A stretch of DNA of 41,259 bases. Source: Halanaerobiales bacterium (lineage in GTDB: Bacteria > Bacillota_F > Halanaerobiia > Halanaerobiales > DTU029). Below the pieces are notes generated by a model. It ran no database searches and was not told where the DNA came from. It was given only the letters and a program-made list of their open reading frames with translations. The translations under genes and the position numbers were made by a program. The stretch is from positions 1 through 41,259 of the forward strand of contig JADQBV010000126.1 of the NCBI GenBank assembly GCA_016278415.1. Direction: 5' to 3'. Positions 3,158 to 38,890 of the stretch are shown here, one piece after another (position 1 is the stretch's first letter; each line of letters opens with the position of its first letter).

Positions 3158-3185
3158 TTGACAATGACGGTCGTTGTCATATTCT
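3158..3185 (+). promoter_or_regulatory. Orphan promoter with TetR-type operator palindrome
   Basis: TGACAATGAC (3159-3168), a central G, then GTCGTTGTCA (3170-3179) form a 21-bp inverted repeat with one mismatched pair. GAC/GTC half-sites of this kind are typical of TetR-family operators. A consensus -35 TTGACA (3158-3163) and a -10-like TATTCT (3180-3185), 16 bases apart, place the operator over the -35 and spacer, the usual repression geometry. No TetR gene or regulated operon lies beside it; the next sequence is a decayed Rpn fragment. It is probably left over after a deletion. The operator call is an inference from symmetry. Confidence 0.5.
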
Positions 3186-3199
3186 TTGATCAAATCAAG

Positions 3200-3685
3200 G
3201 GAGAACTAAAACTTAGAATCTTCTTAGAGTTATTGGGACACATATTTAAAAATGACTTTGAAGATAAATTGAATGAGATAATTAGATTATTGGATGAACT
3301 AGCAAGAAGTAAAACAGATATGGAATATTTTGAATGTGTCATTAGGTATATAATGAATGCTAGGGATGATTTATCTTTAAGTAAATTGGAAAATGTTGCA
3401 AAAAAGGTTTCGATTGAAAGGAGTGAAGAAATTATGACAATTGCAGAAAGGTTAAGAAATGAAGGAAAATTAGAAGGCAAGATAGAAGGCAAGATAGAAG
3501 GTAAGATAGAAGGTATTATAGAGGGAATAGAAGTAGCCCTTGAATTAAAATATGGAAAAGAAGCATTGGAATTAATGAATGATATTCGCCAGATAAAAGA
3601 TTTGGATAGAATAGAAGGAATTAAAGAACTGATCCGGGAAAATAGTAGCTTTAATCAAGTAAAAGAAGTAATTTTTAAACATTAA
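3200..3685 (+). pseudogene. Truncated Rpn-family (PD-(D/E)XK) nuclease/transposase remnant
   Basis: About 160 codons resemble the C-terminal two-thirds of Rpn-family (recombination-promoting nuclease) proteins. They show LELLGHIFKNDFEDKL, then IRLLDELARSKTDMEYFE, then IMTIAERLRNEGK with an EGKIEGK repeat tract, and a C-terminal LELKYGKEAL region. The N-terminal nuclease domain with the catalytic D and E/K residues is absent. The only start options upstream lie inside the operator-like palindrome (TTG 3158, ATG 3164) with no ribosome site. Intact family members are around 300 residues, so this is roughly half. I read it as a 5'-truncated relic fused to foreign sequence near 3200. It could still be expressed from the TTGACA promoter, but loss of the nuclease domain makes activity unlikely. 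Confidence 0.7.
3461..3520 (+). repeat. 12-base tandem repeat encoding EGKI/EGKL
   Basis: Five tandem units of the form GAAGGCAAGATA begin at 3461, 3473, 3485, 3497 and 3509; the second and third are identical and the outer ones diverge. They encode the E-G-K-I run usual in Rpn proteins. The repeat is part of the coding relic and can change length in frame. Confidence 0.8.
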
Positions 3686-3833
3686 GATTATGTGCTGTAT
3701 ATTATAATTCATATTTTAGTAGATTTATAGTTCAGGAGTTAAAAACCTTAATGATGTTTTGGAAAAAATAAGAGATAAATTTAAACCTATTTAACTCAAC
3801 AGGAATTAGCTAACAAGCTAAAGGAAGTTAACT

Positions 3834-4910
3834 ATGTCTATTGAAGCATATTATCCAGAAATGCTATCAATTAACAATATAAAAGTAAATGATTTCAAGG
3901 ATCATATTATGCAATTAAACCTGGAAATAGGTCGCTTTGATGGTATGTTAAGGTATAATCCTCAAAAGGAGATTGTGCAGGCCTTTTTAAGGGCAGAAGA
4001 AGTCTTATCTGCTGCATCTCTTGATATAAGTGAGCTTAGTTTTGATGAATACCTGGACAAGTTGTTGGATAGGGGTTACGGTGCTGATGACCTTAATGAA
4101 ATCAGATTTATGGTTGATTATTATAAAGAGCAAAACTCTATAATTGAAGAAAGAGGTTTTTCCCTTGAGCTGTTAAATGATTTTCAAGAGAAACTACTTG
4201 ATAATCGCAAGCAAAGAACTATAGCTCAAACAGAGTTATATAGAAAAAGACAAATCTGGTTAGTAGAGGCTACTGAGGGTCTTGATGTTAGAAATCATAT
4301 GCAGCCCAGTCAAGATAGAATAAGTGAATTAATGGATAACTTAGATAATTTTATTAGAAAAAGTAAGTTACACCCATTAGTCACTGCAGCTATTGCTTAT
4401 GGACAACTAGTTATGATACATCCCTGGAGATATGTAAATGGTAGAATAACTGGAACTATAATTCCATATGTGTTTAACTTTTTAGGTATTACTAGAGAGA
4501 GAAACTTCTATATCTCTGCTGTTATTTGTAAGGATAAGAAAAAATATTACCATCAGTTAGTTAAACTTTTTAAAACAAATAATTGGCAGGCCTGGATAAA
4601 TTATTTTTTAGATAAAGTAAATGAAGGACTTATGGATATTAATCAAAAAAAGACTGCACATATACTGGAGACTTATAAAAATTATGAAAAATTAATTAAT
4701 AGTAAAAGATCTCCACTAAAAGGTGAATATTTGGATGCCATAATTAGCAAACCTATCTTTACTCCTAAAGATTTCGAGATTGAATATGATTTTGTTCTAT
4801 TAGCCACATTGTATAACTATTTATCTGAATTAAGAGAAAAAGGATATCTGGTACGTGATAATCGTAAGAAATATATGAATTATATGTTTACTATCTTGCG
4901 TGATTTATAA
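3834..4910 (+). CDS. Fic-family protein with degenerate active-site motif
   Basis: A 358-residue protein with Fic-family layout: an N-terminal helical region (about 20-75) where class II proteins carry an inhibitory helix, a Fic core (about 110-290), and a C-terminal helical, winged-helix-like part (ELREKGYLVRDNRKKYMNYMF). The motif at residues 196-207 reads HPWRYVNGRITG against the usual HPFxDGNGRxxR. The catalytic His and NGR remain, but the acidic metal ligand is Y, the first Gly is V and the last Arg is G. By family it would transfer AMP or another phosphate moiety to a protein; loss of the acidic residue makes normal AMPylation doubtful. The start is ATG 3834 behind AAAGGAAG. A perfect hairpin (TTAGCT/AGCTAA, 3806-3821) abuts that site and could affect translation. 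It is a single gene upstream of the polysaccharide locus with no obvious partner. Confidence 0.8.
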   Translation: MSIEAYYPEMLSINNIKVNDFKDHIMQLNLEIGRFDGMLRYNPQKEIVQAFLRAEEVLSAASLDISELSFDEYLDKLLDRGYGADDLNEIRFMVDYYKEQNSIIEERGFSLELLNDFQEKLLDNRKQRTIAQTELYRKRQIWLVEATEGLDVRNHMQPSQDRISELMDNLDNFIRKSKLHPLVTAAIAYGQLVMIHPWRYVNGRITGTIIPYVFNFLGITRERNFYISAVICKDKKKYYHQLVKLFKTNNWQAWINYFLDKVNEGLMDINQKKTAHILETYKNYEKLINSKRSPLKGEYLDAIISKPIFTPKDFEIEYDFVLLATLYNYLSELREKGYLVRDNRKKYMNYMFTILRDL

Positions 4911-20714: not shown

Positions 20715-22025
20715 ATGATTAGACATGTAGAATCTATAATTGTAAGAAATGATATATGTCATTCTTGCGGTGTTTGTGAGGTGGTTTGCCCGAAAAACTG
20801 CATAGATTTTAGTAGGATGGAGGGACAATATTTACCGCAAGTTAATGAAAATAGCTGTATTGAATGTGGTATATGTTTAGATATTTGCTCTGGTTATCTA
20901 GTAGACTTAAATAAATTAAATAAGCAAGAAAACCATCAAAACCCCATAAATTTTTACTTAGGTAATCATCGAGCTTGTTATATAGCAAATGCAAAAAACG
21001 AAGAAATTAGAAATAATGGGGTAAGTGGGGGATGTATAACTGCATTAGTTAAAGAGTTGTTAGATACTGAGGAATATGATGGAGCATTCTTAGTAGACAG
21101 TCATGAGTATAACAAATTTGTACAAACTAACTTATATAAAAAAGGGGATAACCTTGATATAACAAGTAAGTCGCGTTATCTACCTGTATCTCATAGCAAT
21201 ATGATTAAATATGTATTAAAAAATAGGGATGCTAGAGTAATTATTGTTGCCACAAGTTGCGCTGTACATGGATTTCTAAATGTGGTTGATAAATTTAAAT
21301 TAAATAGAGATAATTATTTAATTCTTGGTTTGTTTTGTGATAGAACAATGAATTATAATATATATAATTATTTTAATGATTATTATAAATCTAATTCTAG
21401 ATTGAAAAATTTATTCTTTAGAACAAAAGAAAGCGGTGGCTGGCCAGGACAAATTAAATTGGAGTATGAAAGTGGTGTTGTGAAATTCTTACCAGCTAAA
21501 GAAAGGATGATATTGAAAGATTATTTTCAACTAGAAAGATGTATGTATTGTATTGATAAACTTAATCAATTTTCAGATATATCAATAGGAGATAATTATA
21601 CAGGCAATTATACCACAAATAAAGGAAATAATAGTGTGATAATTAGAACCTCAAAAGGTAAACTGGTATGGAATTTAGTAAAAAATAAAGTGGAAAGCAA
21701 AGAAAGTAGTATTCAAGATATTTATAGAAGTCAACAAATTACATTGCGTTCTCTAAATTATAGGCTAGCCAAGTTAAAACAAAAGCAAAATGATATAGAG
21801 ATATATACTGATTGCCCTATTGAACTTTCTCCAACTAAATTGAATTTAAATAATTATATGAAGAAAAAATTAAAATTAATTAATATTAGTAGGCATTATG
21901 AAACAAAAAAAATGAATTTTCATATTCGAATTAAATATGAAAAAATGCGATTATATATTCTTCGAATAATAAAGGGCCTTGCAAGACGTTTTAGATTTAA
22001 AAATAAAGGATCTGTGAAACCGTGA
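20715..22025 (+). CDS. FrhB-like iron-sulfur flavoprotein (Coenzyme F420 hydrogenase/dehydrogenase beta family), second copy
   Basis: A 436-residue protein with the same layout as the one at 9009. Two 4Fe-4S motifs are at C15-C18-C21-C25-P and C48-C51-C54-C58. The FrhB/FdhB domains follow (NNGVSGGCITALVKEL; VIIVATSCAVHGFL; LERCMYCIDKLNQFSDISIGD). A basic C-terminal tail of about 50 residues (MRLYILRIIKGLARRFRFKNKG) could bind the membrane surface. It is presumably an oxidoreductase in polysaccharide modification; F420 use is not implied. ATG 20715 follows AGAAGGAG. Its stop overlaps the GTG start of the flippase gene (GTGA), so the two are coupled. Confidence 0.85.
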   Translation: MIRHVESIIVRNDICHSCGVCEVVCPKNCIDFSRMEGQYLPQVNENSCIECGICLDICSGYLVDLNKLNKQENHQNPINFYLGNHRACYIANAKNEEIRNNGVSGGCITALVKELLDTEEYDGAFLVDSHEYNKFVQTNLYKKGDNLDITSKSRYLPVSHSNMIKYVLKNRDARVIIVATSCAVHGFLNVVDKFKLNRDNYLILGLFCDRTMNYNIYNYFNDYYKSNSRLKNLFFRTKESGGWPGQIKLEYESGVVKFLPAKERMILKDYFQLERCMYCIDKLNQFSDISIGDNYTGNYTTNKGNNSVIIRTSKGKLVWNLVKNKVESKESSIQDIYRSQQITLRSLNYRLAKLKQKQNDIEIYTDCPIELSPTKLNLNNYMKKKLKLINISRHYETKKMNFHIRIKYEKMRLYILRIIKGLARRFRFKNKGSVKP

Positions 22026-27114: not shown

Positions 27115-27164
27115 TTTTACTGGTATTATAAAATTTTATCTTTATCTGAAAGGAATTCCTCTTT

Positions 27165-27887
27165 ATGAAAACTTTAATAAACAAATTCACCCCAAAATAC
27201 AACAACCAACACCAAAAGCCAAATCAAAATAGTCAAATCCCCACTACGCATCTGCCCCTTAGGGGCACATGTAGATCATCAAGAAGGACTTGTCACAGGC
27301 ATGGTTCTTAACTCCAGTGTGGATATGGTCTTTGCTCCAAATGATGATGGCTATATTCGTGTTCAGAGTCTTGACTTCCCTGATGAAGAATACTTTCATG
27401 TGGCAAAAGTACCTGAGATGATACCTGGTTTCTGGGGAAACTATCTCAGAGGTGCAGTTCTTTCTTTGAAAAGAAATCAACATATTAACAAAGGCTTTAA
27501 TGCAATTATCAGTGGCAAACTACCTATTGGTGGTCTCAGTTCTTCTGCAGCTGTTACTACTGCCTATCTCTTAGCTCTCCGTGATGTAAATAACCTTGAG
27601 ATTAGCCAAGAAGAACTTATTCGCTATAGTCACTGGGTAGAAACTGACTTAATAGGCTTGAAGAATGGTATCCTCGACCAGGCCTCCAATATCCTCAGTC
27701 AAAATGGCTATCTGATGTATATGGATTGTAAGACAGGGGAATATGAGCTTGTTAAACAATCAGAAAAGATGCCTGAATATGAAGTCTTGGTTGTTTATTC
27801 TGGAATAAGCAAAGCACTGATAGGTACAAATTATAATAATAGGGTTGATGAATGCAAGGTATCAGCTTAGGAGGCAAATATATGTGA
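27165..27887 (+). pseudogene. Broken GHMP sugar kinase, galacturonokinase-like
   Basis: A kinase relic with at least two lesions. It opens at ATG 27165 behind AAAGGA (MKTLINKF), but that frame leaves the kinase, which continues from about 27247 in another frame: RICPLGAHVDHQEGLVTG, LPIGGLSSSAAVTTAYLLAL (GHMP ATP loop), LKNGILDQASN, GYLMYMDCKTG, and YNNRVDECK. It then jumps: the +1 frame reads GISLGGKYM-stop at 27885-27887, a plausible true C-terminus, so some 180-200 middle codons are missing. From memory, the PLGAHVDHQ, LKNGILDQ, YMDCKT and YN.RV.EC segments resemble plant-type galacturonokinases (GalA to GalA-1-P). It lies beside a broken nucleotidyltransferase and an intact UDP-GlcA 4-epimerase, which fits a lost UDP-GalA salvage route. 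Confidence 0.8.
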
Positions 27888-28609
27888 AAGCAAATCCTGG
27901 CAGCAGGATATGCTACCAGGCTATATCCTTTAACCAAAGGCAAACAAAACCCTTACTTAGGGGTTGGCGGAAAGACTATCCTTGAACATATTTTAATTAA
28001 ATCAAAAAAGGTAGAAGAAGTAGAGCAGGTATATATAGTAACGAACCAGAAATTCTATACTCACTTCAAAGAATGGGTAGATAATTATGATTATCCTTTA
28101 GATATAAAAGTAATAAACGATCATACTCTTAGCAATGATGATAGATTAGGGGCAATAGCTGATCTATATTATGTAATAGAGCAGGAAGAAGTCGAAGATG
28201 ATATTATAGTAATGGCCGGAGATAATCTCTTTGACTTTGAATTAAGTTATTTTGTTGGTTTCCAAAGAGAACTTAATGCTGACTGTATTAGCTCACACCA
28301 ATTAGATGATATAGATGAACTAAAAAAAACAGGAGTAATAGAAGTAGATGATAGTAATAGGGTACTATCCTTTGAAGAAAAACCTGCAATACCAAAATCA
28401 AGATTAGCAGTACCACCATTCTATATCTACAGAGAAGAAACACTTCCTTTAATCAAAGAATACCTAGAAGAAGGTAATAATCCTGATGCCCTGGTAATTT
28501 TGTTCCCTATTTGGTTGAGAAAAAAGATGTCTATACTTATCAATTTGAAGGCTATAGATATGATATAGGTACATTAGAAAGCTATCAAGAAGTACAGGCT
28601 AAATTTTAG
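27884..28609 (+). pseudogene. Broken sugar-1-phosphate nucleotidyltransferase
   Basis: A nucleotidyltransferase gene with two single-base lesions. It begins at GTG 27884, overlapping the kinase stop, after AGGAGG. An extra A near 27893 shifts the frame; without it the start reads VKAILAAGYATRLYPLT. The frame then runs through VGGKTILEHIL, VMAGDNLFDFELS (metal-binding Asp) and VLSFEEKPAIPKS to GNNPDA. A base is missing near 28490; restoring it gives PGNFVPYLVEKK, then FEGYRYDIGTLESYQEVQ, ending at TAG 28607-28609. The corrected length, about 240 residues, fits RmlA-like sugar nucleotidyltransferases. An internal ATG (28212) could express only a fragment. Paired with the preceding kinase, it would have activated a sugar-1-phosphate. 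Sequencing error could explain this gene alone, but not the kinase deletion beside it. Confidence 0.85.
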
Positions 28610-28630
28610 GACAGGGGACGGTTCTTTGTC
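28610..28630 (+). repeat. REP-like palindrome
   Basis: A 21-base element runs from GACAGGGGAC to TTCTTTGTC directly after the broken nucleotidyltransferase. With G-T pairing it folds over its whole length (GACA/TGTC at the base, CGG loop). The ggggacggttctttgtc type is, from memory, common in Clostridia as REP-like repeats linked to Y1-type transposases. I saw only one copy in this window. Confidence 0.4.
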
Positions 28631-28683
28631 TTGAGATAGAGAAAAAAGCGTGAAACAATTATTATACTGAGGAGTTGTCTGAT

Positions 28684-29739
28684 TTGACTATTAAAGTTAT
28701 AAATAAAGATAAACGCTATCTGATTACAGGTGCAGCAGGTTTTATAGGCTCTTTTTTATCAAAAAGATTATTAAAAGAAGGCTGTAAGGTAATAGGAATA
28801 GATAATAAGAATGACTATTATGACATCAAACTGAAAAATGATCGCTTAGAAGAACTTAAATCATTTGCTGAGTTTACATTTATTAGAGGTGATATCTCAG
28901 ATAAAGAAATGCTGATGGAAACCTTTGAAATATATCAACCTGAGATTGTGGTAAATTTAGCAGCTCAGGCAGGTGTAAGATATTCTATTGAGAATCCGGA
29001 TGTTTATATACAGAGTAATATTATCGGCTTCTATAATATTCTGGAAGCTTGCAGACATTATCCAGTGGATCATCTTATCTATGCCTCATCCAGTTCTGTT
29101 TATGGTGCTAATAAGAAAGTACCATTTGAAGAGACAGACTTTGTGGACAATCCTGTTTCACTTTATGCAGCCAGTAAGAAGTCAAACGAACTGATGGCTC
29201 ATACTTACAGTCATTTATACAATATCCCTGCTACAGGACTGAGATTCTTTACAGTTTATGGCCCTAAGGGACGTCCTGATATGGCCTACTTTATCTTTGC
29301 TAACAAACACTTTGCTAAAGAGCCTATCAAGATATTTAATAATGGAGATTTTGATAATGACTTATATAGAGATTTCACCTATATTGATGATATAGTAGAA
29401 GGAATAGTAAGGCTTATCCCCAATCTACCTGTCAGAGCAGAAGATGGAGAGGTAAGTAAGGATAGGTCAGCACATAGGGTCTATAATATAGGAAACAACA
29501 GTCCAGTGAAATTGATGGACTTTATTACTACCCTAGAAAAATGCCTGAGTAAGGCAATGGGTGAGGAAGTAGTCTTTGAAAAGATCTATGAACCTATGAA
29601 GCCAGGGGATGTTCCTAGAACATATGCCTCTACCGAGGCATTACAGAAAGCAGTTGGTTTTAAACCAAAGACTTCTATCGAAGAAGGGCTACAACAGTTT
29701 GCTGACTGGTATGTGGATTATTACAAGATAAAAGAGTAA
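28684..29739 (+). CDS. UDP-glucuronate 4-epimerase (CapI/LpsL type)
   Basis: A 351-residue extended SDR. Motifs: YLITGAAGFIGSFLSKRLL, NLAAQAGVRYSIENPDVY, YASSSSVYGANKKVPFEE, SLYAASKKSNELMAHTY (YxxxK), and FFTVYGPKGRPDMAYF. The GRPDMA segment and AQAGVRYS are typical of UDP-GlcA 4-epimerases (CapI, LpsL, plant GAE) and differ from GalE. It would convert UDP-GlcA, made by the Ugd encoded next, into UDP-GalA. I prefer TTG 28684, 9 bases after GAGGAG at 28669-28674; TTG 28675 abuts that site. A nucleotide-sugar 4-epimerase of other specificity is possible, but the neighbouring ugd and the uronate kinase relic support the call. Confidence 0.88.
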   Translation: MTIKVINKDKRYLITGAAGFIGSFLSKRLLKEGCKVIGIDNKNDYYDIKLKNDRLEELKSFAEFTFIRGDISDKEMLMETFEIYQPEIVVNLAAQAGVRYSIENPDVYIQSNIIGFYNILEACRHYPVDHLIYASSSSVYGANKKVPFEETDFVDNPVSLYAASKKSNELMAHTYSHLYNIPATGLRFFTVYGPKGRPDMAYFIFANKHFAKEPIKIFNNGDFDNDLYRDFTYIDDIVEGIVRLIPNLPVRAEDGEVSKDRSAHRVYNIGNNSPVKLMDFITTLEKCLSKAMGEEVVFEKIYEPMKPGDVPRTYASTEALQKAVGFKPKTSIEEGLQQFADWYVDYYKIKE

Positions 29740-29905: not shown

Positions 29906-31303
29906 ATGTATAAAAATAAGATAAGCATCATTGGGACAGGCTATGTTGGTTTAGTTGGTGGGGTATGTCTGGCTGACTTTGGTAATACAATTATTAATGT
30001 AGATATAAATGAAGAAAAGATAAATAAATTAAAATGTGGTGAAATACCTATCTACGAACCTGGTTTAAAAGAAGTTTTTGATAGGAATGTAGAGGCAGGT
30101 AGGATAAGCTTTACTACAGATATAGAGTCTGCTGTTAAAGAGAGTGAAGTAATCTTTATTTCTGTAGGTACACCACCTGCTGATGATGGTAGTGCTGATC
30201 TTTCTTTTGTTCTAAAGGTAGCTGAGTCTATTGGTAAATATATGAACGACTATAAAGTCATTGTAGATAAATCCACTGTACCTATAGGTACTGGAAGAAA
30301 AGTAGCTGAGGTAATCCAGTCTGAACTGGATAAAAGGGGAGAAGACTTTTCCTTTGATGTAGTTAGTAATCCAGAGTTCTTACGTGAGGGTAAGGCAGTC
30401 TATGATGTAATGCATCCAGATAGGGTTGTTGTGGGAACAGAGAGTGAAAAGGCGAGAGATATCTTAAAAGAGGTTTACCGAGCCTTATATCTTAATGAAG
30501 TTCCCTTTGTCTTTACTAATCTGGAAACAGCAGAGATGATAAAATATGCCTCAAATGCCTTTTTAGCCTGTAAGATATCATATATTAATGAGATGTCTAT
30601 TCTGTGTGAAAAGGTAGGGGCAGATGTACAGAAGGTTGCTAAAGGCATGGGTATGGATGGACGTATTGGTAGTAAGTTCTTACATGCTGGTCCTGGCTAT
30701 GGAGGTAGTTGCTTCCCTAAAGATACTAAGGCCATTACCCGTATTGCTGATGAAAACGGTGTAGAGCTAAAGGTAATTAAAGCTGCTATAGAGTCTAATG
30801 AGAAACAAAAACACTATATGGTAGAGAAGATAGAGAACACCTTAGGGGAGCTTAAGGGTAAGAAGATAGGGATTCTAGGTTTGAGTTTTAAACCAGAGAC
30901 AGATGATATGCGTGAAGCCCCTTCTTTAACAATTGTCCCAGAGTTAATAAATAAAGGTGCCAGTATAGCTGCATTTGATCCTGAAAGTCTGGAAGAGGCA
31001 GGCTGGCGTTTAAATGACTATGAGAAAGATATTATATATTGTGCCAATGAATATGAAGTAATGAAGGGTGCAGATGCCCTGGTAATTATTACTGAATGGA
31101 ATCAATTCAGGAGACTGGATCTTGCTAGAGTAAAGGATTTATTGGCAGGCAGTTATTTCTTTGATCTGCGTAATGTCTATGTACCAGAAGAGGTAGAGTC
31201 AGCAGGATTGGACTATATAGGTGTAGGATTACCTCAGACAATTACTAAAAAGGAATTGGCTCAAGCTAGACAGGATGTAGCTGCAGCTGAGAGTGAAGAG
31301 TAG
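29906..31303 (+). CDS. ugd: UDP-glucose 6-dehydrogenase
   Basis: A 465-residue enzyme oxidising UDP-glucose to UDP-glucuronate with 2 NAD+. Motifs: the Rossmann GTGYVGLVGGVCLADFG, SVGTPPADDGSADLS, DKSTVPIGTG, VSNPEFLREGKAVYD, ASNAFLACKISYINE, the catalytic-Cys segment GPGYGGSCFPKDTKA, and LGLSFKPETDDMREAPS. The C-terminus has a short alanine/glutamate tail (DVAAAESEE). ATG 29906 follows AAGGGAG. It supplies UDP-GlcA to the epimerase upstream. A terminator lies about 45 bases after the stop. A diverged copy of its last ~90 bases survives at 38337, on the far side of the inserted module. Confidence 0.96.
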   Translation: MYKNKISIIGTGYVGLVGGVCLADFGNTIINVDINEEKINKLKCGEIPIYEPGLKEVFDRNVEAGRISFTTDIESAVKESEVIFISVGTPPADDGSADLSFVLKVAESIGKYMNDYKVIVDKSTVPIGTGRKVAEVIQSELDKRGEDFSFDVVSNPEFLREGKAVYDVMHPDRVVVGTESEKARDILKEVYRALYLNEVPFVFTNLETAEMIKYASNAFLACKISYINEMSILCEKVGADVQKVAKGMGMDGRIGSKFLHAGPGYGGSCFPKDTKAITRIADENGVELKVIKAAIESNEKQKHYMVEKIENTLGELKGKKIGILGLSFKPETDDMREAPSLTIVPELINKGASIAAFDPESLEEAGWRLNDYEKDIIYCANEYEVMKGADALVIITEWNQFRRLDLARVKDLLAGSYFFDLRNVYVPEEVESAGLDYIGVGLPQTITKKELAQARQDVAAAESEE

Positions 31304-31315
31304 ATGTAGGTGAAT

Positions 31316-31402
31316 AGATTAAAAATGTAAATATATGAATCCATTAGGTGTAAGCAGGAATTAATTGCTTATGCCTTTTTTAGTTTCTAATTTTTGCAGG
31401 AA
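31316..31402 (+). repeat. Terminator-bearing repeat, copy A
   Basis: About 87 bases after ugd, from ATTAAAAATGTAAATATAT through a hairpin to TTTTTGCAGGAA, match the sequence after the GHMP kinase gene (41071-41157) at roughly 80% by hand alignment. The hairpin and the closing TTTTTGCAGGAA are best conserved. It may be a mobile terminator element or the result of an old duplication. Confidence 0.8.
31347..31381 (+). terminator. Rho-independent terminator after ugd
   Basis: GGTGTAAGCA (31347-31356) pairs with TGCTTATGCC (31366-31375), 10 bp with two G-T wobbles, followed by six T. It ends the polysaccharide operon and separates it from the downstream module. Confidence 0.8.
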
Positions 31403-31482: not shown

Positions 31483-31575
31483 ATGAAGTATGATTATTTA
31501 ATAATAGGTGCTGCATTATATGGCAGTTTATTTGCTTATGAGGATTATAAAAGTGGAGGCAGTATTAATGGATAA
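31483..31575 (+). pseudogene. glf: 5' fragment of glf (UDP-galactopyranose mutase)
   Basis: From ATG 31483, with GGAGG 9 bases upstream, the sequence encodes MKYDYLIIGAALYGSLFAYE. This is the FAD-binding start of UDP-galactopyranose mutase, whose usual form is GAGLYG (here GAALYG). Similarity is lost within about 25 codons, and the frame ends at TAA 31573-31575, overlapping the next gene's ATG (31568). The ribosome site is intact, so the 30-codon peptide may be translated and coupled to the gene behind it. It marks the left edge of the inserted module. Confidence 0.8.
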
Positions 31576-33265
31576 ACAAGTAAAGGAACACTTTGTATAT
31601 GCATTAGTTACAACAAGAGCTAGAGTTAGATTATTGAAAGAGCGTTCTCTAAAATCTATTATAAAACAGAGCCATCCAGTTGATACTATTATTCTTGTTG
31701 ATGATTCTGATGAACAAGAAACTCAAGCATCTAATATGGCAATTTTAGAATCACTAAAAACTTCTATACCTAAAGTTTATTTAAAAAACAAATATACACC
31801 AGGTGCTGCTGGAGCATGGAATACAGGGATTGATTATATTAATGAAAAAAATCCTAATGTCTGGATAGCATTTTTAGATGATGATGACGAGTGGAAAGAA
31901 GAACATGTAGAAACGTGTTTACAATTTACAAGTGATAATGTAACTGTTATTAGTGGAATAAAAACTATAATTGATGGTAATGAAATTGTTAGAAAAAAGG
32001 TAAAAAGTAATTTTAGTGTTGCCGGTTTTTTTGCTGGTAATCCAGGATGGCAAGGTTCAAACACATTTATTAAAGCATTTTTTATTAAAAGTGTAGGTTC
32101 TTTTGATGAAAAAATGGTGTGTACACATGATAGAGACTTAGCAGTGCGGTGTTTAAGCAATCCTTTGTTTAAATATTCATTTACTAATAAAACAACTGTA
32201 AATTATTATTTAGATAAGGATAGAGATGCGCTAACTTCTAAGAAAAAGGTAAAAACAACAGGGTTACTTCAATTTTGGGAAAAATATCATAATATAATGA
32301 ATGAAAAGGAAAAAAGTAATTTTATTATTAGAGCATGTAAATATTTTAAAGTTAATCCTATTCTTTTTCAGCTTTTACTACAAAAAGAAGAAGAACATCA
32401 TGGTTTTCTTGATGATACTAATATACACTACGGTTATTTAATTAATAAATTTTTTCATCTGAAGTATAATATAAAAAAGTTTTTTTTATTTATAAATAAG
32501 CTTTTCTTACTAACAAATATTAAAGGCTATGCTTATAATAGATCACATAGTAAAATTGAAATTGATATTACTTATAATTGTAGTCTTAAATGTATAAATT
32601 GTAATAGATCTTGTGGACAGGCTCCAGAGAAGCTCCATATCTCTTTAGAAAAAGTAAAAGAATTTGTAGATGAATCAATAGAGAGAAAAATTGAGTGGAA
32701 AACAATCAGAATTTTAGGTGGAGAACCAACTTTACATCCTAATTTTACTGAGATTATATATATGTTAGTTAAATATAAAATAGAATACCCTAAAAGCAGG
32801 TTAGAAATTGTAACTAATGGTTATGGTAGAAATACGAAAAGAATGATAACGCATATTCCTCCCCTATTTCACATTGAAAATAGTAAAAAAACGACTAATA
32901 TACAACCTCATTTTGAAGCATTTAATAATGCACCTCAAGACTCTTTCTTTTATAAGTTTAGTAATTATAAAAACGGTTGTTCTAATCTTGTGTATTGTGG
33001 TATAGGTTTAACTCCACTAGGCTATTATCCCTGTAGTATTGCAGGCGGGATAGATAGAATTGTTTCCTGGAAAATAGGTAGAAAAAATATTCCGGCTGAA
33101 GATGATGATTTGAGAGATATTCTAGAAAGGTCTTGTAGATTATGTGGGAGATTTCGCTCCAGTGTTTTTGTACCCTATAATTTTCGTAAAAAATTAAACA
33201 AAGCAATAATATCGAAAAGTTGGAAGGAGTTATATGCAAGTTGGAAAACAGAAAAGAAAAAGTGA
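31568..33265 (+). CDS. GT2 glycosyltransferase-radical SAM fusion protein
   Basis: A 565-residue two-domain protein. Residues about 8-235 are a GT-A glycosyltransferase: FVYALVTTRARVRLLKERSL, TIILVDDSDEQ, AGAWNTGIDYIN, and AFLDDDDEW (104-107) as DxD motif. After a helical linker rich in Lys and Phe, residues about 328-540 are a radical SAM domain: EIDITYNCSLKCINC with C338-x3-C342-x2-C345, NRSCGQAP, and GGEP (384-387). The C-terminal SNLVYCGIGLTPLGYYPCSI, then AGGIDRI and CRLCGRF supply cysteines for an auxiliary cluster (SPASM/twitch-like). The radical SAM part is closely related to that of the protein at 34113. Reaction unknown; a glycan or glycan-linked substrate is plausible. ATG 31568 has GTGGAGG 8 bases upstream. 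Codons are markedly A/T-biased. Confidence 0.85.
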   Translation: MDKQVKEHFVYALVTTRARVRLLKERSLKSIIKQSHPVDTIILVDDSDEQETQASNMAILESLKTSIPKVYLKNKYTPGAAGAWNTGIDYINEKNPNVWIAFLDDDDEWKEEHVETCLQFTSDNVTVISGIKTIIDGNEIVRKKVKSNFSVAGFFAGNPGWQGSNTFIKAFFIKSVGSFDEKMVCTHDRDLAVRCLSNPLFKYSFTNKTTVNYYLDKDRDALTSKKKVKTTGLLQFWEKYHNIMNEKEKSNFIIRACKYFKVNPILFQLLLQKEEEHHGFLDDTNIHYGYLINKFFHLKYNIKKFFLFINKLFLLTNIKGYAYNRSHSKIEIDITYNCSLKCINCNRSCGQAPEKLHISLEKVKEFVDESIERKIEWKTIRILGGEPTLHPNFTEIIYMLVKYKIEYPKSRLEIVTNGYGRNTKRMITHIPPLFHIENSKKTTNIQPHFEAFNNAPQDSFFYKFSNYKNGCSNLVYCGIGLTPLGYYPCSIAGGIDRIVSWKIGRKNIPAEDDDLRDILERSCRLCGRFRSSVFVPYNFRKKLNKAIISKSWKELYASWKTEKKK

Positions 33266-34086
33266 TAAAAAAAGAAGAAGCAGTATGCTATAATATTGAA
33301 TGGAAAAATCCTGAAGTTTTTTTAGCAGATATTATTTTTGTTGTACCAATACGAAATAGTAAAAGAACAATCAAAGCGGCTATTAAATCAGTTCTTTCGC
33401 AAAAATGTGGATTTAAGTTAGGAATATTAATTCTTGATGATCAATCCAATGACTCCTGGCAAGAGGAAATACAAGAAGAAATTTCTACAGGAAAGATTGT
33501 TATTGCTTCATGTAAAGCAGGTTCTTCCTGGAAAATTAGAAATCTAGGAAAAGAAATAGCCGATGAGTATTTTACACACTATATCTGGTTGTGTCGGCTT
33601 GATTCTGACGATACACTTGTTTCAGAGAGTGTAGTCAGTGAAATTATAGAGGGTATTTCTAAAGAAAATCGTGAAGTATTATGGGTTTTAGCAAGTAATC
33701 TTCAAATTGAAAATGGAATATCAGTTAATAAGCTTGGAAATAAGGCTGATAAGTCTTTATTAAATAATAATATTCTTTTAAAAAGATTAGAAGGAATGAG
33801 TGAAGGAGATTTTACTTGTGAGTTACCATCTTGTAATTTATGGTTAAAACGTGGATTTAATGTTTATTATCCTGCTGTTGAAAGTGCAGAAGATCATTGG
33901 CTTCTTACGTATTTATTAATATTTTTTAAAGAAAAGACTTGTATGTTTCCTGATGTTTTACATACAAATTATTCACTTACAGGAAAAGCTACTATAGCAA
34001 ATAAAAAGAAGCTTAATTATTTTAAATCACGAAGGATGCTATATGAGCAAGCTAAAACCTGGATTAAAGAAAGAGACAGTTATTAG
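33241..34086 (+). CDS. Glycosyltransferase, GT2 family (GT-A fold)
   Basis: A protein of about 281 residues with a GT-A domain: IIFVVPIRNSKRTIKAAIKS, VLSQKCGFKLGILILDDQSN, CRLDSDDTLVSE with the metal-binding DSDD, and a later ESAEDHWLL holding the likely catalytic ED. It overlaps the end of the previous gene. The start is uncertain: TTG 33241 lies 11 bases after AAGGAG; GTG 33262 (GTGA overlap with the previous stop) is an alternative; TTG 33220 is upstream of the ribosome site. It lies between the two radical SAM fusion genes, 26 bases before the second, so the three are one transcription unit. Donor and acceptor unknown. Confidence 0.8.
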   Translation: MENRKEKVIKKEEAVCYNIEWKNPEVFLADIIFVVPIRNSKRTIKAAIKSVLSQKCGFKLGILILDDQSNDSWQEEIQEEISTGKIVIASCKAGSSWKIRNLGKEIADEYFTHYIWLCRLDSDDTLVSESVVSEIIEGISKENREVLWVLASNLQIENGISVNKLGNKADKSLLNNNILLKRLEGMSEGDFTCELPSCNLWLKRGFNVYYPAVESAEDHWLLTYLLIFFKEKTCMFPDVLHTNYSLTGKATIANKKKLNYFKSRRMLYEQAKTWIKERDSY

Positions 34087-34112
34087 TATTGTTGATTTAA
34101 TAAGGAGGTCTT

Positions 34113-37100
34113 ATGAACAGGATAGATCTAGGATTTAATATATTAGAGGCTAATTATAATAAGGATTTTTATTTTTTAGGAAAAGGAATGTCTTCAGTAG
34201 TTTACCATGATGGTGAAAGGGTTTATAAAGTATTTATTCCTGAAAAAAATAAATGTCTAGAAAATATTGATTTAAATATATACTTATTACAAAAAAAGAA
34301 AGGCATTATAAATAACTCGCGTTTCTTTTTTGAAATTCATGAAACTTGTGAGGGTAATCCAAATATATTGATATATAGATATGAAGAAACCAGTAAATTA
34401 AATTACATAAATGAAGCAGAACTAATAGATTTTTTAGCTGATTGTTGGTCAAAAAAAATTATAGTAAAGGATATTAAAAAGGATAATTTTAGAAGAACTT
34501 TGTCTGGTCAGTTAAAGTATATTGATTATGAAATAGACTTATATAACGATAATTTGTTTTTAAATATGGCAGTAAGATCTTTTATTATGTTAAAATATTT
34601 TAATCAAAGTGATGAGTTTCTTAAAAAATTGAAAAGAAGTTCTATTAATCAATTTCATCTCCCAGAATTAAAGGGAGTACAAGATTTTATAAATGATATT
34701 TTTGCTAAGGTTATATTTAATGAGGGAAAAGATATTATTACTGATTATAATCAAACAAATAAGATAACTGATACTTATATTAGTTTGGATTTCAATAAAG
34801 ATATAAATATAAAGAAATTGTTTTTTGATTATATTAAAAAAGGTATGTATATAAAAGATGTAAAAGTTGATGATATTATATTAGATAAAAATAATTATTT
34901 TAAACCCAAACAATTATTGATTAAACTTGATAAAACAAATATTTTAGATTATAAAGTTAGTTTAGCTATAAAAACCTGTGTTCAAGAGGCTGATACTATA
35001 TATGAGCAAGTCTTACATATTGTTAAGCAACTCTCTTTTCCTGATAGTTTCTATGAGATAGTAATTATAGTGGATACTAAAGAACAAAATTTTCTAAGAG
35101 AATATAACAGTAACGGAAAACTAACTCTTCTAATAGAAGAAATAAAGAAACTAAAAAAAGAAAGAATAATAGACAGATATATTTTACTACCTCAAGATAG
35201 AATAAAAGAAGTTAATAAGAGATGGTTTAATCTTGAAACAGAGGAAACTCATACAATAATCAATGCTCCTGTTACTAGTCATTTATATGGATTTGAACAG
35301 TTAAAAGGAGATTATATTTTACAAATGGATTCTGATGTGATGATTGGAAGATATGATTACAATCATTCATTCTTAACTGATATGATAAAAGAAATGGAAA
35401 GTAAAAAAAATGTTATTTCTGTAGGTTTTAATATTCCTCATCAAAAAGATTCGGCTTATAATGAATATACTGGTTTTTTTAAGGGGGGATATGTACCGGA
35501 AGTAAGAATGGGTTTGTTTCATAAAAAAAGATTCTTAGATCAGCGTCCTCTACCGAATAAATTAATTGATGGAAAATTAGAATTGACATGGTTTAGATCA
35601 CTACACAAAAAACAAGAACAGACAAATTATGTTTCTTTAAGGGGAGGAGATCCTGCAAGTTTTTATATTCATCCACAAAATTATAGAAAAACTGAAAAAG
35701 ATGTTTGGTTTACAATCTTAGATAGAGTAGAAAATGCAATATTGCCGAAAAATCAAATGGAAGAGTTTGATTTAAAAGGTTCATATTATGATTGGACAAT
35801 AGAAAAAAGAAATGAAAAGGTTGTATTAATTGTACTTATGAAAAATATTAATTATGGAAGATTTTTGAGAATGTGGACTTCCGTACTTTCGCAAACATTT
35901 ACAGACTGGGGTATGATAATAATTGATGATGTATCGACAAATGGAGTGGATTATTTTGTTGATTATATTGTAAAAAATCACAGTAATAAAGTTACTTATA
36001 TTAAAAATAGATTTAGACAGTATTCAGCTAAAAATACTTATAAAGCAATTCATTATTTTATAGATAATCCACAATCTATAATTATTACTCTGGATGGTGA
36101 TGATGCTTTAATAGGTAAAAATGCTTTGCAAATTATTGTAGATAAATATGATTATAATAATGCAGATGTGGTTATAGGCAAAATGTATAGAACTGATAAA
36201 TTACAGGCCCATTATAAATACAAACCTTATTTTTTGGAACCAAGAAAGTACGGAGGTAATGTGTGGCAACATTTAAGAAGTTTTAAAAAATATTTATATG
36301 ATTCATTAAGTACTTATGATTTTAAGTTTAATTTAGGGAATGGTCATAGAGAATGGATTAAAAATTGTGGTGATTATGCAATGATGGTTCCTATTTGCGA
36401 AATGGCCTCTAATCCTGTTATAATTCATCAATTTAATTATTATTTTAATAAAACAACAAAAATAACTAAAAAAATAAGAAAATCAAAAGATGATATTATA
36501 GAAAAAATACTAGCTAGACCTAGGAAAACAAAATCAGATATTATAATGAGAAGAAAAAAATATACACCTAATTATAAATTTATTGAAATTGATATTACTT
36601 TTAAATGTAATTTAAAATGTTTTTCTTGTAATCGTTCCTGTACCCAAGCACCATCAGATGAAATAATGCAATTTGAACAGATAAGGAAATTTGTAAAGGA
36701 TTCTATTAAAGAAAAATATAAATGGGAAAGAATTAGTATATTAGGTGGAGAACCAACTTTACATCCTGATTTTATAAAGATTGTTCATTATATTTATAAT
36801 GAATATATTTTAAAATATAATAACGACACTATCCTAAAAATAGTAAGTAATGGATATTCTCAATATAGCAGGCAAGAACTTAAAAAAATAGGAAAAATTC
36901 CGAATGTATTAATTAACAAAAAGTCATTTAAAAGCAATAAAGAAGTAAAATATTTTATTCCTTTTAATAAAATAAACCTTAAAAAAAGAGACGATAATGA
37001 CAGGGACTATTCAAAAGCTTGTTGGGTTACCTCATATTGTGGTATTGGGTTAAATAAATATGGATATTACGGATGTAGTGTTGCAGGCGGTATTGATAGG

Positions 37101-37346
37101 GTTATTGGGATGGATAAAGGAATAAGACAGTTAAAAAATATTAAAAATGAGTTAAATAACCATTCCAGTATATTCTGTAAATATTGTGGTTCGTTTTATG
37201 AATATGATGTGAATAAAGGTGATTATATTCCTAGAGCAGAATTAGACGTATTAAATCCTAAAGATTCTATGTCTGAAATATGGAAAGACTTCTATAGAAG
37301 ATATAATAAACAGAGGCCAAAATTAACAGAAATATATAAAGACTAA
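34113..37346 (+). CDS. Kinase-GT2-GT2-radical SAM multidomain protein
   Basis: A 1077-residue protein with four recognisable parts. Residues 1 to about 200 resemble the protein-kinase/small-molecule-kinase fold: LGKGMSSVVY loop, Lys39 (RVYKVF), KDIKKDN with D120 and N125, and a YIDYE segment (D138) in the DFG position. Residues about 280-550 are a GT-A-like domain (LAIKTCVQEADTIYEQV; YEIVIIVD; QMDSDVM with DSD 406-408). Residues about 568-790 are a second GT2 domain (VVLIVLMKNINYGRFLRMW, GMIIIDDVSTNG, TLDGDDALIG at 660-668). Residues about 823-1077 are a radical SAM domain: C832-x3-C836-x2-C839, C843, GGEP 878-881, and auxiliary cysteines C970, C976, C988, C1022, C1025. No signal peptide or membrane helix is seen. 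I know no characterised protein with this layout. ATG 34113 has AAGGAGG upstream. Confidence 0.8.
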   Translation: MNRIDLGFNILEANYNKDFYFLGKGMSSVVYHDGERVYKVFIPEKNKCLENIDLNIYLLQKKKGIINNSRFFFEIHETCEGNPNILIYRYEETSKLNYINEAELIDFLADCWSKKIIVKDIKKDNFRRTLSGQLKYIDYEIDLYNDNLFLNMAVRSFIMLKYFNQSDEFLKKLKRSSINQFHLPELKGVQDFINDIFAKVIFNEGKDIITDYNQTNKITDTYISLDFNKDINIKKLFFDYIKKGMYIKDVKVDDIILDKNNYFKPKQLLIKLDKTNILDYKVSLAIKTCVQEADTIYEQVLHIVKQLSFPDSFYEIVIIVDTKEQNFLREYNSNGKLTLLIEEIKKLKKERIIDRYILLPQDRIKEVNKRWFNLETEETHTIINAPVTSHLYGFEQLKGDYILQMDSDVMIGRYDYNHSFLTDMIKEMESKKNVISVGFNIPHQKDSAYNEYTGFFKGGYVPEVRMGLFHKKRFLDQRPLPNKLIDGKLELTWFRSLHKKQEQTNYVSLRGGDPASFYIHPQNYRKTEKDVWFTILDRVENAILPKNQMEEFDLKGSYYDWTIEKRNEKVVLIVLMKNINYGRFLRMWTSVLSQTFTDWGMIIIDDVSTNGVDYFVDYIVKNHSNKVTYIKNRFRQYSAKNTYKAIHYFIDNPQSIIITLDGDDALIGKNALQIIVDKYDYNNADVVIGKMYRTDKLQAHYKYKPYFLEPRKYGGNVWQHLRSFKKYLYDSLSTYDFKFNLGNGHREWIKNCGDYAMMVPICEMASNPVIIHQFNYYFNKTTKITKKIRKSKDDIIEKILARPRKTKSDIIMRRKKYTPNYKFIEIDITFKCNLKCFSCNRSCTQAPSDEIMQFEQIRKFVKDSIKEKYKWERISILGGEPTLHPDFIKIVHYIYNEYILKYNNDTILKIVSNGYSQYSRQELKKIGKIPNVLINKKSFKSNKEVKYFIPFNKINLKKRDDNDRDYSKACWVTSYCGIGLNKYGYYGCSVAGGIDRVIGMDKGIRQLKNIKNELNNHSSIFCKYCGSFYEYDVNKGDYIPRAELDVLNPKDSMSEIWKDFYRRYNKQRPKLTEIYKD

Positions 37347-37379
37347 AGAGTAATATCTTTAATTTATTGGGAGGAAAAT

Positions 37380-38048
37380 ATGGAACAGCAGTTAAATAGG
37401 AAAACCAAAACTTTTATTACTATGAGTATTATTTTTGTGACATTATTAGTAATTAGTAATGTAATAGCAGGGAAAATAATAATAATTGGAAATTTGGTAG
37501 GACCAGCAGCAGTTTTATTTTATGCTCTTACTTTTGTAATTTCGGATACTTTGACTGAGATATGGGGGAAAGAGAGGGTAAAATTTATTATATTACTTGG
37601 ATTTTGTGCAAATTTAGTAGCAGCAATTATGATAAGATTAGCAATTTCATTTCCATACGCTCCATTCTGGGAATATCAACAAGAATACCGGCTTATATTA
37701 GGTAGTAATTTTAGAATTGTAATAGCCAGTATGACTGCTTATTTATTTAGTCAATATCATGATGTTTGGTCATTTGATTTTTGGAAAAAAGTAACTAATG
37801 GTAAACATTTATGGTTAAGGAATAATTTATCGACTGTTTTTTCGCAATTATTAGATACTGTTTTATTTATAATAATTGGTTTTTATGGAACAGATACTCC
37901 AATTTTATCAATGATAATGAGTCAATATATTATTAAAATAATAATTGCATTTTTTGATACTCCTATGGTTTATGTTAGTGTTAATATGATAAGAAAGATA
38001 ATAGACTCTGAGGAAATTTCAAGGGAATTACAGAAAGTAAAAAGTTAA
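37380..38048 (+). CDS. Queuosine-precursor-transporter family membrane protein (VUT/YhhQ, PF02592)
   Basis: A 222-residue membrane protein with about six helices. Family marks: LLVISNVIAGKIIIIGNLVG, GPAAVLFYALTFVISDTLTE then IWGKERVKFIILLGF, and LWLRNNLSTVFSQLLDTVLF then IIGFYG. YhhQ proteins import queuine precursors (preQ0/preQ1) or queuine. Here it is the last gene of the radical SAM/glycosyltransferase module, 33 bases after the kinase-GT-radical SAM gene, with GGGAGG upstream of ATG 37380. No queuosine synthesis gene is nearby. Either the module uses an imported deazapurine-like compound, or this family member carries something else, or the adjacency is fortuitous. Confidence 0.85.
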   Translation: MEQQLNRKTKTFITMSIIFVTLLVISNVIAGKIIIIGNLVGPAAVLFYALTFVISDTLTEIWGKERVKFIILLGFCANLVAAIMIRLAISFPYAPFWEYQQEYRLILGSNFRIVIASMTAYLFSQYHDVWSFDFWKKVTNGKHLWLRNNLSTVFSQLLDTVLFIIIGFYGTDTPILSMIMSQYIIKIIIAFFDTPMVYVSVNMIRKIIDSEEISRELQKVKS

Positions 38049-38336: not shown

Positions 38337-38426
38337 AAATATATAGGTATATGATTAACTTAGACAATTAAAAAAGGAATGGATCAAGTCCGATAGGATG
38401 TAGCCGTATCTGAGGGTGAAGAGTAG
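38337..38426 (+). pseudogene. ugd: Diverged 3' fragment of ugd
   Basis: About 90 bases, from ATATATAGGTATATGATT to the final GAGTAG at 38421-38426, align with the last 93 bases of intact ugd (31211-31303) at about 80% by hand, with two small gaps that break the frame. The clearest stretches are TAGACAATT against CAGACAATT, and AGGATGTAGC plus GTGAAGAGTAG at the end. The divergence means it is not a recent duplication of the neighbouring ugd. With ugd on the other side, it brackets the 7-kb module 31304-38336. Confidence 0.85.
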
Positions 38427-38440
38427 AGGAAAGCAGGTAT

Positions 38441-38890
38441 TTATATTTTCACCTTCATTACTACCTTTATAACATCCTCAGGTTCATTGATTTGTATTGC
38501 AGGCATATGTAATTCACCTGGTGTAAAGATGATAAAGTCACCTTTAGTAAGCCTTAAGAAGTCACCTTCTCCGGAATGAAACTGAATATCATTTATAGTA
38601 CTGTACTTTTCGGAGCCCTCTATTCTATTAATATGCGAAAAGCCTATTAACTCCGAGCCCTTTACGATATATTGAATGTCGATGTATTTCTGATGGCTTT
38701 CCCATTTAGCCTCTGTTTTACTTTTTGTCTTATACATACCAATATTAGCAATAACATCAGAACCCTGAATATTATATGATCCCACCTCAAGATGATCAGT
38801 GTCTATATTAAGTAGATATTCAAATGCTGTCTTAAACTTATCATTTAGGCTATGGTAATAGTGATGATTTTTAATTGTATCATAGATCAT
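38441..38890 (-). CDS. YhcH/YjgK/YiaL family cupin-like protein
   Basis: A 149-residue protein on the minus strand, the only clear minus-strand gene here. It matches the YhcH/YjgK/YiaL (DUF386) family in length and motifs: MIYDTIKNHHYYHSL, KTKTEAKWESHQKYIDIQYI-like core (the conserved WE.H....D.q), VKGSELIGF, GDFIIFTPGELHMPAI with the metal-binding Glu and His, and VIKVVMKVKI at the end. Members are beta-sandwich metal-binding proteins implicated in sugar catabolism (sialic acid, gulonate), perhaps as sugar anomerases or isomerases; the exact reaction is unsettled. A minus-strand GGAGG lies 9 bases before its ATG. It faces the ugd relic and diverges from galU, so it is outside the polysaccharide operon. 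Confidence 0.9.
   Translation of the reverse strand: MIYDTIKNHHYYHSLNDKFKTAFEYLLNIDTDHLEVGSYNIQGSDVIANIGMYKTKSKTEAKWESHQKYIDIQYIVKGSELIGFSHINRIEGSEKYSTINDIQFHSGEGDFLRLTKGDFIIFTPGELHMPAIQINEPEDVIKVVMKVKI

Follow-up and report, generated by a model that had tools for sequence, protein, structure and literature searches.

What is made by a gene cluster in which radical S-adenosylmethionine (SAM) domains are covalently joined to glycosyltransferases? The question is raised by a module of four genes in the 41,259-nt contig JADQBV010000126.1 of a Halanaerobiales bacterium (GenBank assembly GCA_016278415.1), the whole of which is called the window here. With moderate confidence, we regard this module as an assembly line for glycans that is self-contained, moves horizontally and edits sugars by radical chemistry; in the window it lies in a capsule-type locus. 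Its genes nearly touch one another, as genes 1 and 2 overlap and the two following gaps measure 26 and 33 bp. An original prediction, made from the letters of the DNA alone, had described four tightly spaced same-strand genes with the domains listed below, and the open reading frames agree with it, as do the Pfam matches for all of these domains except the kinase-like one.

31568..33265, + strand: gene 1, fusion of a family 2 glycosyltransferase (GT2-family) domain, GT1, and a radical SAM domain, rSAM1; 565 aa from ATG 31568
about 31592-32374 and about 32519-33232, + strand: GT1 and rSAM1 domains of gene 1, respectively
33241..34086, + strand: gene 2, GT2-family glycosyltransferase, read from TTG 33241 and overlapping the end of gene 1
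34113..37346, + strand: gene 3, kinase-like-GTa-GTb-rSAM2 protein, 1077 aa
34113-34727, 34920-35807, 35808-36512 and 36552-37292, + strand: kinase-like, GTa, GTb and rSAM2 domains of gene 3, respectively
37380..38048, + strand: gene 4, membrane protein of the Vut_1/TIGR00697 family, 222 aa, an optional companion

The open frame of gene 1 begins upstream, at GTG 31508, and gene 2 has three candidate starts in one frame (TTG 33220, TTG 33241 and GTG 33262). Pfam finds GT2 (9e-16) and Radical_SAM (3e-10) in gene 1, GT2 (1e-7) in gene 2, two GT2 stretches (2e-16) together with Radical_SAM (2e-9) in gene 3, and Vut_1 (4e-51) in gene 4; genes 1, 2 and 3 all exceed the PF00535 cut-off for the GT2 family. 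The AlphaFold2 model of gene 3 has a mean pLDDT (per-residue confidence) of 87 and a pTM (predicted template modelling score) of 0.84.

Does this arrangement exist elsewhere? A scan of genome collections with the gene 1 family confirmed at least 355 stretches, the best 80 of which were kept as loci and compared with profiles, built from homologues, of five core domains: GT1, GT2 (the domain of gene 2), the kinase-like domain, GTa and GTb. At least four of the five are present in 19 of the 80 loci, on one strand and in the same order in all 19. According to the record titles, these module loci belong to Euryarchaeota metagenome-assembled genomes (L001 and L002, of marine type judged by their relatives), Myxococcota, Deltaproteobacteria (L008 and L013, whose layouts make them near copies), Phycisphaerales, Bacteroidia and Pseudomonadota, the last being represented by Acidocella, Photobacterium, Methylovulum, Vibrio, Rheinheimera, Zoogloea, Pseudomonas, Rhodocyclales and another gammaproteobacterium. 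Beyond the 80, a Salinivibrio replicon (L081) carries the full core plus a radical SAM domain on the other strand. By comparison, 49 of the 80 loci match the GT1 profile only and mostly resemble ordinary GT2 genes (two of them, L022 and L025, belong to a sister type described below), and one (L030) has GT1 and a piece of GTa. Across 18 loci, the identity matrices of GT1, GT2, GTa and GTb correlate with r of 0.94-0.96, a value reached in 0 of 2000 permutations for the two domain pairs tested. Ten Pseudomonadota loci (L003, L004, L005, L009, L010, L012, L014, L020, L029 and L081) also have a conserved protein of 256-292 aa, A4, beside the module; its motifs recall a GT42 sialyltransferase, an assignment unsupported by Pfam and PDB profiles.

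The same order is also found within single proteins. At E<=0.001, 278 relatives of gene 3 were found; in a list of 120 of them, which includes the window's own, the others are 44-66% identical, nearly always along the whole protein. Among 318 listed proteins, 49 are at least 1280 aa long, and 36 of these 49 read GT1-GT2-kinase-like-GTa-GTb-rSAM2 in one chain, while 10 are without GT1, two start with a short-chain dehydrogenase/reductase (SDR) domain and one starts with another domain. In P0126, P0137, P0145 and P0239, the domain equivalent to gene 2 is fused ahead of the counterpart of gene 3. Another gene 3 relative, P0243, has PF06626 (a precomputed assignment) at its N-terminus in place of GT2. 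As for the expectation that the four families would occur together and in order in unrelated genomes, genes 1-3 bear it out, through the 19 of 80 loci and the 36 of 49 fusions, and gene 4, adjacent in one other module locus within the fetched flanks, fits it weakly.

If the order is kept, are the radical SAM domains kept as working enzymes? The CxxxCxxC motif of the SAM cluster is invariant (19/19 gene 1 rows, 47/47 gene 3 rows and, in a second alignment, 49/49 rSAM1 rows), and five more C-terminal Cys residues, which may bind an auxiliary cluster, are present in 19/19 gene 1 rows and 46-47/47 gene 3 rows. By fold, rSAM1 is nearest to the twitch radical SAM dehydrogenases SpeY and BtrN, rather than to viperin or MoaA. 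When family profiles were compared (the best 25 of 39 NCBIfam matches for gene 1 and the best 25 of 26 for gene 3), both genes fell far below the cut-offs of the MoaA, mycofactocin maturase and SPASM equivalogs (e.g., 45.9 vs 284 for moaA), and the prokaryotic viperin model NF038283 gave 26.5 and 32.4 bits, under its cut-off of 180 bits. In a tree of these domains, the window's rSAM1 groups with the first radical SAM domain of L001 and L002, two loci with a GT1-rSAM1 fusion like that of the window and two radical SAM domains each, and their second domains fall on the rSAM2 side. The module holds two distinct radical SAM clades, each joined to a glycosyltransferase, much as had been proposed. 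The glycosyltransferase domains of genes 1 and 3 likewise keep their DxD-type motifs (DDDDEW in 19/19 gene 1 rows, DxD in 47/47 GTa rows and a DxDD type in most GTb rows), and the tandem GTa-GTb fold resembles both domains of the chondroitin polymerase K4CP.

What would rSAM1 act on? The strongest reason to think that it edits a sugar is that a sugar-oxidising SDR takes its place in relatives. The position between GT1 and GT2, occupied by rSAM1 in the window and in L001, L002, L006, L007 and L019, is held by an SDR domain in three of the 36 one-chain proteins (P0254, P0255 and P0259). The SDR of P0218, which stands ahead of GT2, has 57 PDB matches at E<=1e-20, including many UDP-glucose 4-epimerases and some dTDP-glucose 4,6-dehydratases. 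That of P0254 scores 142 bits against the UDP-glucuronate-epimerase-like protein of the window vs 107 against its rmlB-like protein, and those of P0255 and P0259 are about even between the two.

The kinase-like domain is more ambiguous. Pfam gave no kinase match for gene 3 at E<=1, and the absence of kinase folds from the VIA list for this protein, which covers mainly residues 567-809, carries no weight. A profile of the domain from 18 loci does match protein kinases in the PDB, with a best E of 3e-5 (916 sequences at E<=1, of which the best 60 are listed). Five positions, G23, G25, K39, N125 and D138, among them the ATP-binding Lys, the catalytic-loop Asn and the metal-binding Asp, are the same in 18/18 loci. 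The position of the catalytic Asp in the HRD loop is D in three loci (D120 in the window), N in 14 and T in one, and 14 of 47 gene 3 relatives have Asn there. The kinase resemblance that had been predicted is upheld by the PDB profile match, while a standard kinase is made less likely by the loss of the catalytic Asp in 15 of the 18 loci.

Taken as an assembly line, the module could work as follows. GT1 would start or extend a sugar chain on an acceptor, and rSAM1 would take hydrogen from the newly placed sugar, thereby oxidising (or epimerising) one carbon. Gene 2 would attach the next sugar, GTa and GTb would add further residues, probably with uronates among them, as a bifunctional chondroitin/heparosan-type transferase does, and rSAM2 would carry out another radical edit. 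The kinase-like domain may bind ATP and either phosphorylate a sugar or serve as a regulatory or docking pseudokinase. The sequences themselves show which domains are present, the order and fusions that are conserved, the invariant residues of the motifs, the likeness of folds and the patchy spread; movement between lineages, the substrates, the sequence of reactions, the uronates and the acceptor are inferred from them.

Where could uronates come from? The window offers a possible supply next to the module, in genes that are neighbours rather than core parts and whose names were given by eye:

28675..29739, + strand: UDP-glucuronate 4-epimerase-like SDR gene
29906..31303, + strand: ugd-like UDP-glucose dehydrogenase gene, likely the supplier of UDP-glucuronate

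Both lie 5' of the module and a galU-like gene, likewise named by eye, lies 3' of it. In L001, L002 and L020 a UGD-like gene stands immediately ahead of GT1. The UDP-glucuronate epimerase has homologues next to the module in L014, where two open reading frames share it, and in L004, where only a piece is present, and near sister-type or GT1-kinase-like loci as well (L022, L028 and L034).

Several points weigh against the assembly line as drawn. Uronate genes are also frequent near ordinary GT2 (GT1-only) loci, so this neighbourhood is suggestive only. The SDRs of P0218 and P0220 are nearer to the rmlB-like protein of the window (120 and 119 bits) than to the epimerase-like one (97 and 88 bits). 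A radical SAM domain is present in the fetched stretch of 13 of the 19 module loci and not in that of the other six (L010, L012, L014, L020, L027 and L029); for two of these six, genomes G801 and G803, the A1 profile found GT1 and no radical SAM at E<=1e-15, and radical editing is therefore not essential to the core. The mirror-tree agreement of the glycosyltransferase domains can come from shared ancestry alone, and fold similarity reveals no function.

Could the four genes simply be ordinary side-branch genes of a capsule locus, with no special logic and with radical SAM domains that are relics or have their function elsewhere? The window does hold, by eye, wzy/wzx-, rml-, ugd- and galU-like genes, and GT2 genes are ubiquitous. 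This explanation is nonetheless improbable, since the Cys residues of the radical SAM motif are invariant, the order and the fusions are kept across bacteria and archaea, and some relatives lie outside recognisable polysaccharide loci, as in Salinivibrio or in L026, near a tRNA synthetase gene. Three features lie at or near the edges of the module within the locus:

31346..31376, + strand: terminator-like hairpin of 12 pairs with a T run, between ugd and gene 1
31483..31573, + strand: left-edge remnant, a gene start followed by a stop, which by eye resembles the N-terminus of a UDP-galactopyranose mutase
38340..38430, + strand: right-edge scar, a 91-bp copy of the 3' end of ugd, 82% identical

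The last two confirm the boundary scars announced in the original prediction. Its other sign of foreignness, a stronger A/T bias than in ugd or galU, is correct as a measurement (28, 30, 25 and 27% G+C in genes 1-4, respectively, vs 38% in each of ugd and galU) and does not distinguish the module, because other genes of the same locus are equally AT-rich (24% G+C in the open reading frame at 15765 and 27% in that at 22022). Terminator-like hairpins number two in the region vs 1.4 expected by shuffling, and a promoter scan, with 50 sites vs 51 expected, was uninformative. Elsewhere in the window, a truncated GHMP-kinase-like open reading frame and a nucleotidyltransferase-like remnant lie at 27115-28675, between the rmlB-like and epimerase-like genes, and look by eye like decayed sugar genes. 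Open reading frames that by eye are Rpn-nuclease-like and Fic-like are found at 3158-4910, immediately 5' of the polysaccharide locus, and a YhcH/YjgK/YiaL (DUF386) gene at 38441-38890, on the opposite strand, between the scar and galU.

How, then, does the module travel? Its distribution is patchy and suggests transfer between lineages. Whole-genome surveys were positive for 1/395, 0/398, 0/299, 1/199, 2/190, 1/247 and 1/37 genomes; apart from G1468, a partial match, each positive was the genome at the centre of its survey. One genome of 247 in one order, the query's own, carries the module. In the 0/398 and 0/299 surveys the centre genomes themselves went unmatched, leaving these two with no positive control, and the absences are in general soft because scoring was confined to a few first-look candidates in each genome. 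Gene 3 has no match among phage records and one record among plasmids. An IS21 gene lies inside the module in L012, and two transposases accompany L081. A viral origin was considered and rejected: of the 79 viral-contig loci to which the gene 3 family led, those listed show radical SAM matches only, and no glycosyltransferase or kinase-like domain belonging to the module (the listing covers loci numbered beyond L105 only if they had two or more kinds of match). Relatives of this radical SAM subfamily do occur on viral contigs (L093-L105 and others), several of them in pairs, with no module glycosyltransferase domains among the loci listed.

What does the fourth gene add? It exceeds the TIGR00697 cut-off for queuosine precursor transporters (180.7 bits vs 50.95) and stays below that of the YhhQ equivalog PRK11212 (51.8 bits vs 252). 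According to PMC7694415, preQ0 or preQ1 is carried by YhhQ-type proteins. It had been proposed that the module possibly uses an imported building block. Within the fetched flanks, Vut adjoins only one other module locus, L018, where its gene stands immediately ahead of the fused gene, with some 2 bp between its stop codon and that gene, in a genome that has a second Vut elsewhere; there is no Vut match in genome G002, which has the one-chain form. Import as a core function is rejected for this reason, and gene 4 is treated as an optional companion. At L039, a Vut gene lies within 1 kb of the GT2 and none of the other module domains is found.

Gene 4 is also the starting point for a different view, in which the target of the cassette is a nucleobase, 7-deazaguanine or another, that Vut imports, radical SAM remodels and the glycosyltransferases glycosylate, in DNA, tRNA or a small molecule. 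The TIGR00697 score and the position of Vut in L018 speak for it, as do the closer relation of the two module Vuts (36% identical to each other vs 24-31% to four other genomic Vuts), the weak likeness of the radical SAM domains to MoaA and viperin, and the GTP cyclohydrolase II of the sister type. We consider it very improbable, given that Vut is unmatched in the fetched flanks of the other module loci and in G002, that the fold match favours SpeY and BtrN over viperin or MoaA, and that several relatives carry a sugar-epimerase-type SDR as their additional domain.

The sister type, type II, emerges from loci that combine GT1 with the kinase-like domain and lack GTa and GTb (11 of the 80). Homologues of the AsnB-like and N-acetyltransferase-like proteins of L015, the latter resembling arylamine N-acetyltransferases, occur in L011, L015, L016, L017, L021, L023, L028, L031, L033, L022 and L025; type II comprises nine of the 11 GT1-kinase-like loci plus L022 and L025. 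In L015 a GTP cyclohydrolase II is fused to NADAR, and eight of the 11 type II loci match this protein (L028, L031 and L033 do not); Pfam checks covered L015 and the cyclohydrolase of L025. This suggests that a GT1-kinase-like core is common to both types, with different tailoring chemistry attached to it.

Does the company kept by the module point to another role? Several of its relatives lie among restriction or other defence genes, a setting that the original prediction, otherwise partly supported, had missed together with the SDR fusions. In L010 the order is HsdR-[module]-HsdM-HsdS; L020 is flanked by GmrSD and an HsdR-like gene, L003 by HipA, GmrSD and a UvrD/PDDEXK gene, and L005 by Cas3, GajB-like and DruE-like genes. 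Less clear cases are L009 (N6_Mtase and a UvrD-like gene) and L004 (IS66 and a ResIII helicase). Four or more of the 14 module loci examined for this are surrounded in this way, which makes an anti-phage role conceivable: the module, or its glycan product, could be an anti-phage defence system carried as defence-island or mobile cargo that merely landed in a capsule locus here. This is a serious possibility, though we hold it to be unlikely. It is in line with the rarity of the module in the order surveyed and with type II, whose cassette lies near HsdR in L011 and adjoins tra genes on the Pseudoalteromonas plasmid NZ_CP032092.1 (L181). PADLOC models at E<=1e-15 matched 206 families in 97 flank open reading frames of 14 module loci vs four in 97 of 14 control GT2 loci, a strong contrast that is confounded, because redundant models make the 206 families stand for a smaller number of proteins and the control loci come mostly from other phyla. 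The module proteins themselves match no system model of PADLOC-DB 2.0.0 and give only partial pVip matches of 24-38 bits, through the radical SAM core; the L003 UvrD/PDDEXK gene may encode a repair enzyme; flank proteins scanned singly (two at L029, one at L006) were not recognised as defence genes; and the setting in the window is a polysaccharide locus.

A bolder version would have the module as a mobile immune or inter-microbial weapon, an often single-chain glycan synthase that writes radical-modified sugars and is swapped between archaea and bacteria as defence-island cargo. Its sister type would rely on the chemistry of pyrimidines derived from GTP (GTP cyclohydrolase II-NADAR, AsnB-like and N-acetyltransferase-like proteins) with small or surface glycoconjugates as products, and the glycoconjugates of both types would block phage. 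We think this rather doubtful.

Radical SAM domains covalently joined to glycosyltransferases would allow sugars to be edited after linkage and give access to glycans that may be beyond the reach of nucleotide-sugar chemistry alone. With an order kept from marine-type archaea to several bacterial phyla, a 1600-residue fusion and defence genes for company in several genomes, the cassette is a clear target for study.

How does it compare with known systems? Its components are of known kinds; as foreseen from the sequence, neither this combination nor the sister type was found described in the literature searched, and PMC7159879 deals with an unrelated system. SpeY and BtrN, of spectinomycin and butirosin synthesis, respectively, are most like rSAM1 by fold, at 16-18% identity. 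Both are free-standing enzymes of aminoglycoside pathways, whereas the radical SAM domains of the module are fused to or embedded among glycosyltransferases. K4CP and heparosan synthase 2 are bifunctional pairs of GT-A domains, and GTa-GTb matches both K4CP domains and has a ugd-like gene nearby; the identity is 13-16%, however, the domains are placed differently, and the pair of the module is flanked by a kinase-like and a radical SAM domain. Wzx/Wzy-type capsule and exopolysaccharide loci share the setting seen by eye in the window, GT2 enzymes and nucleotide-sugar genes, but relatives of the module are also found among defence genes and on mobile replicons. Prokaryotic viperins (pVip) have a distantly similar radical SAM core, and some relatives of the module keep company with defence genes. 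The YhhQ/QueT/COG1738 queuosine-precursor transporters, lastly, are the counterparts of gene 4, for which transport is predicted from a score above TIGR00697 and below the YhhQ equivalog cut-off.

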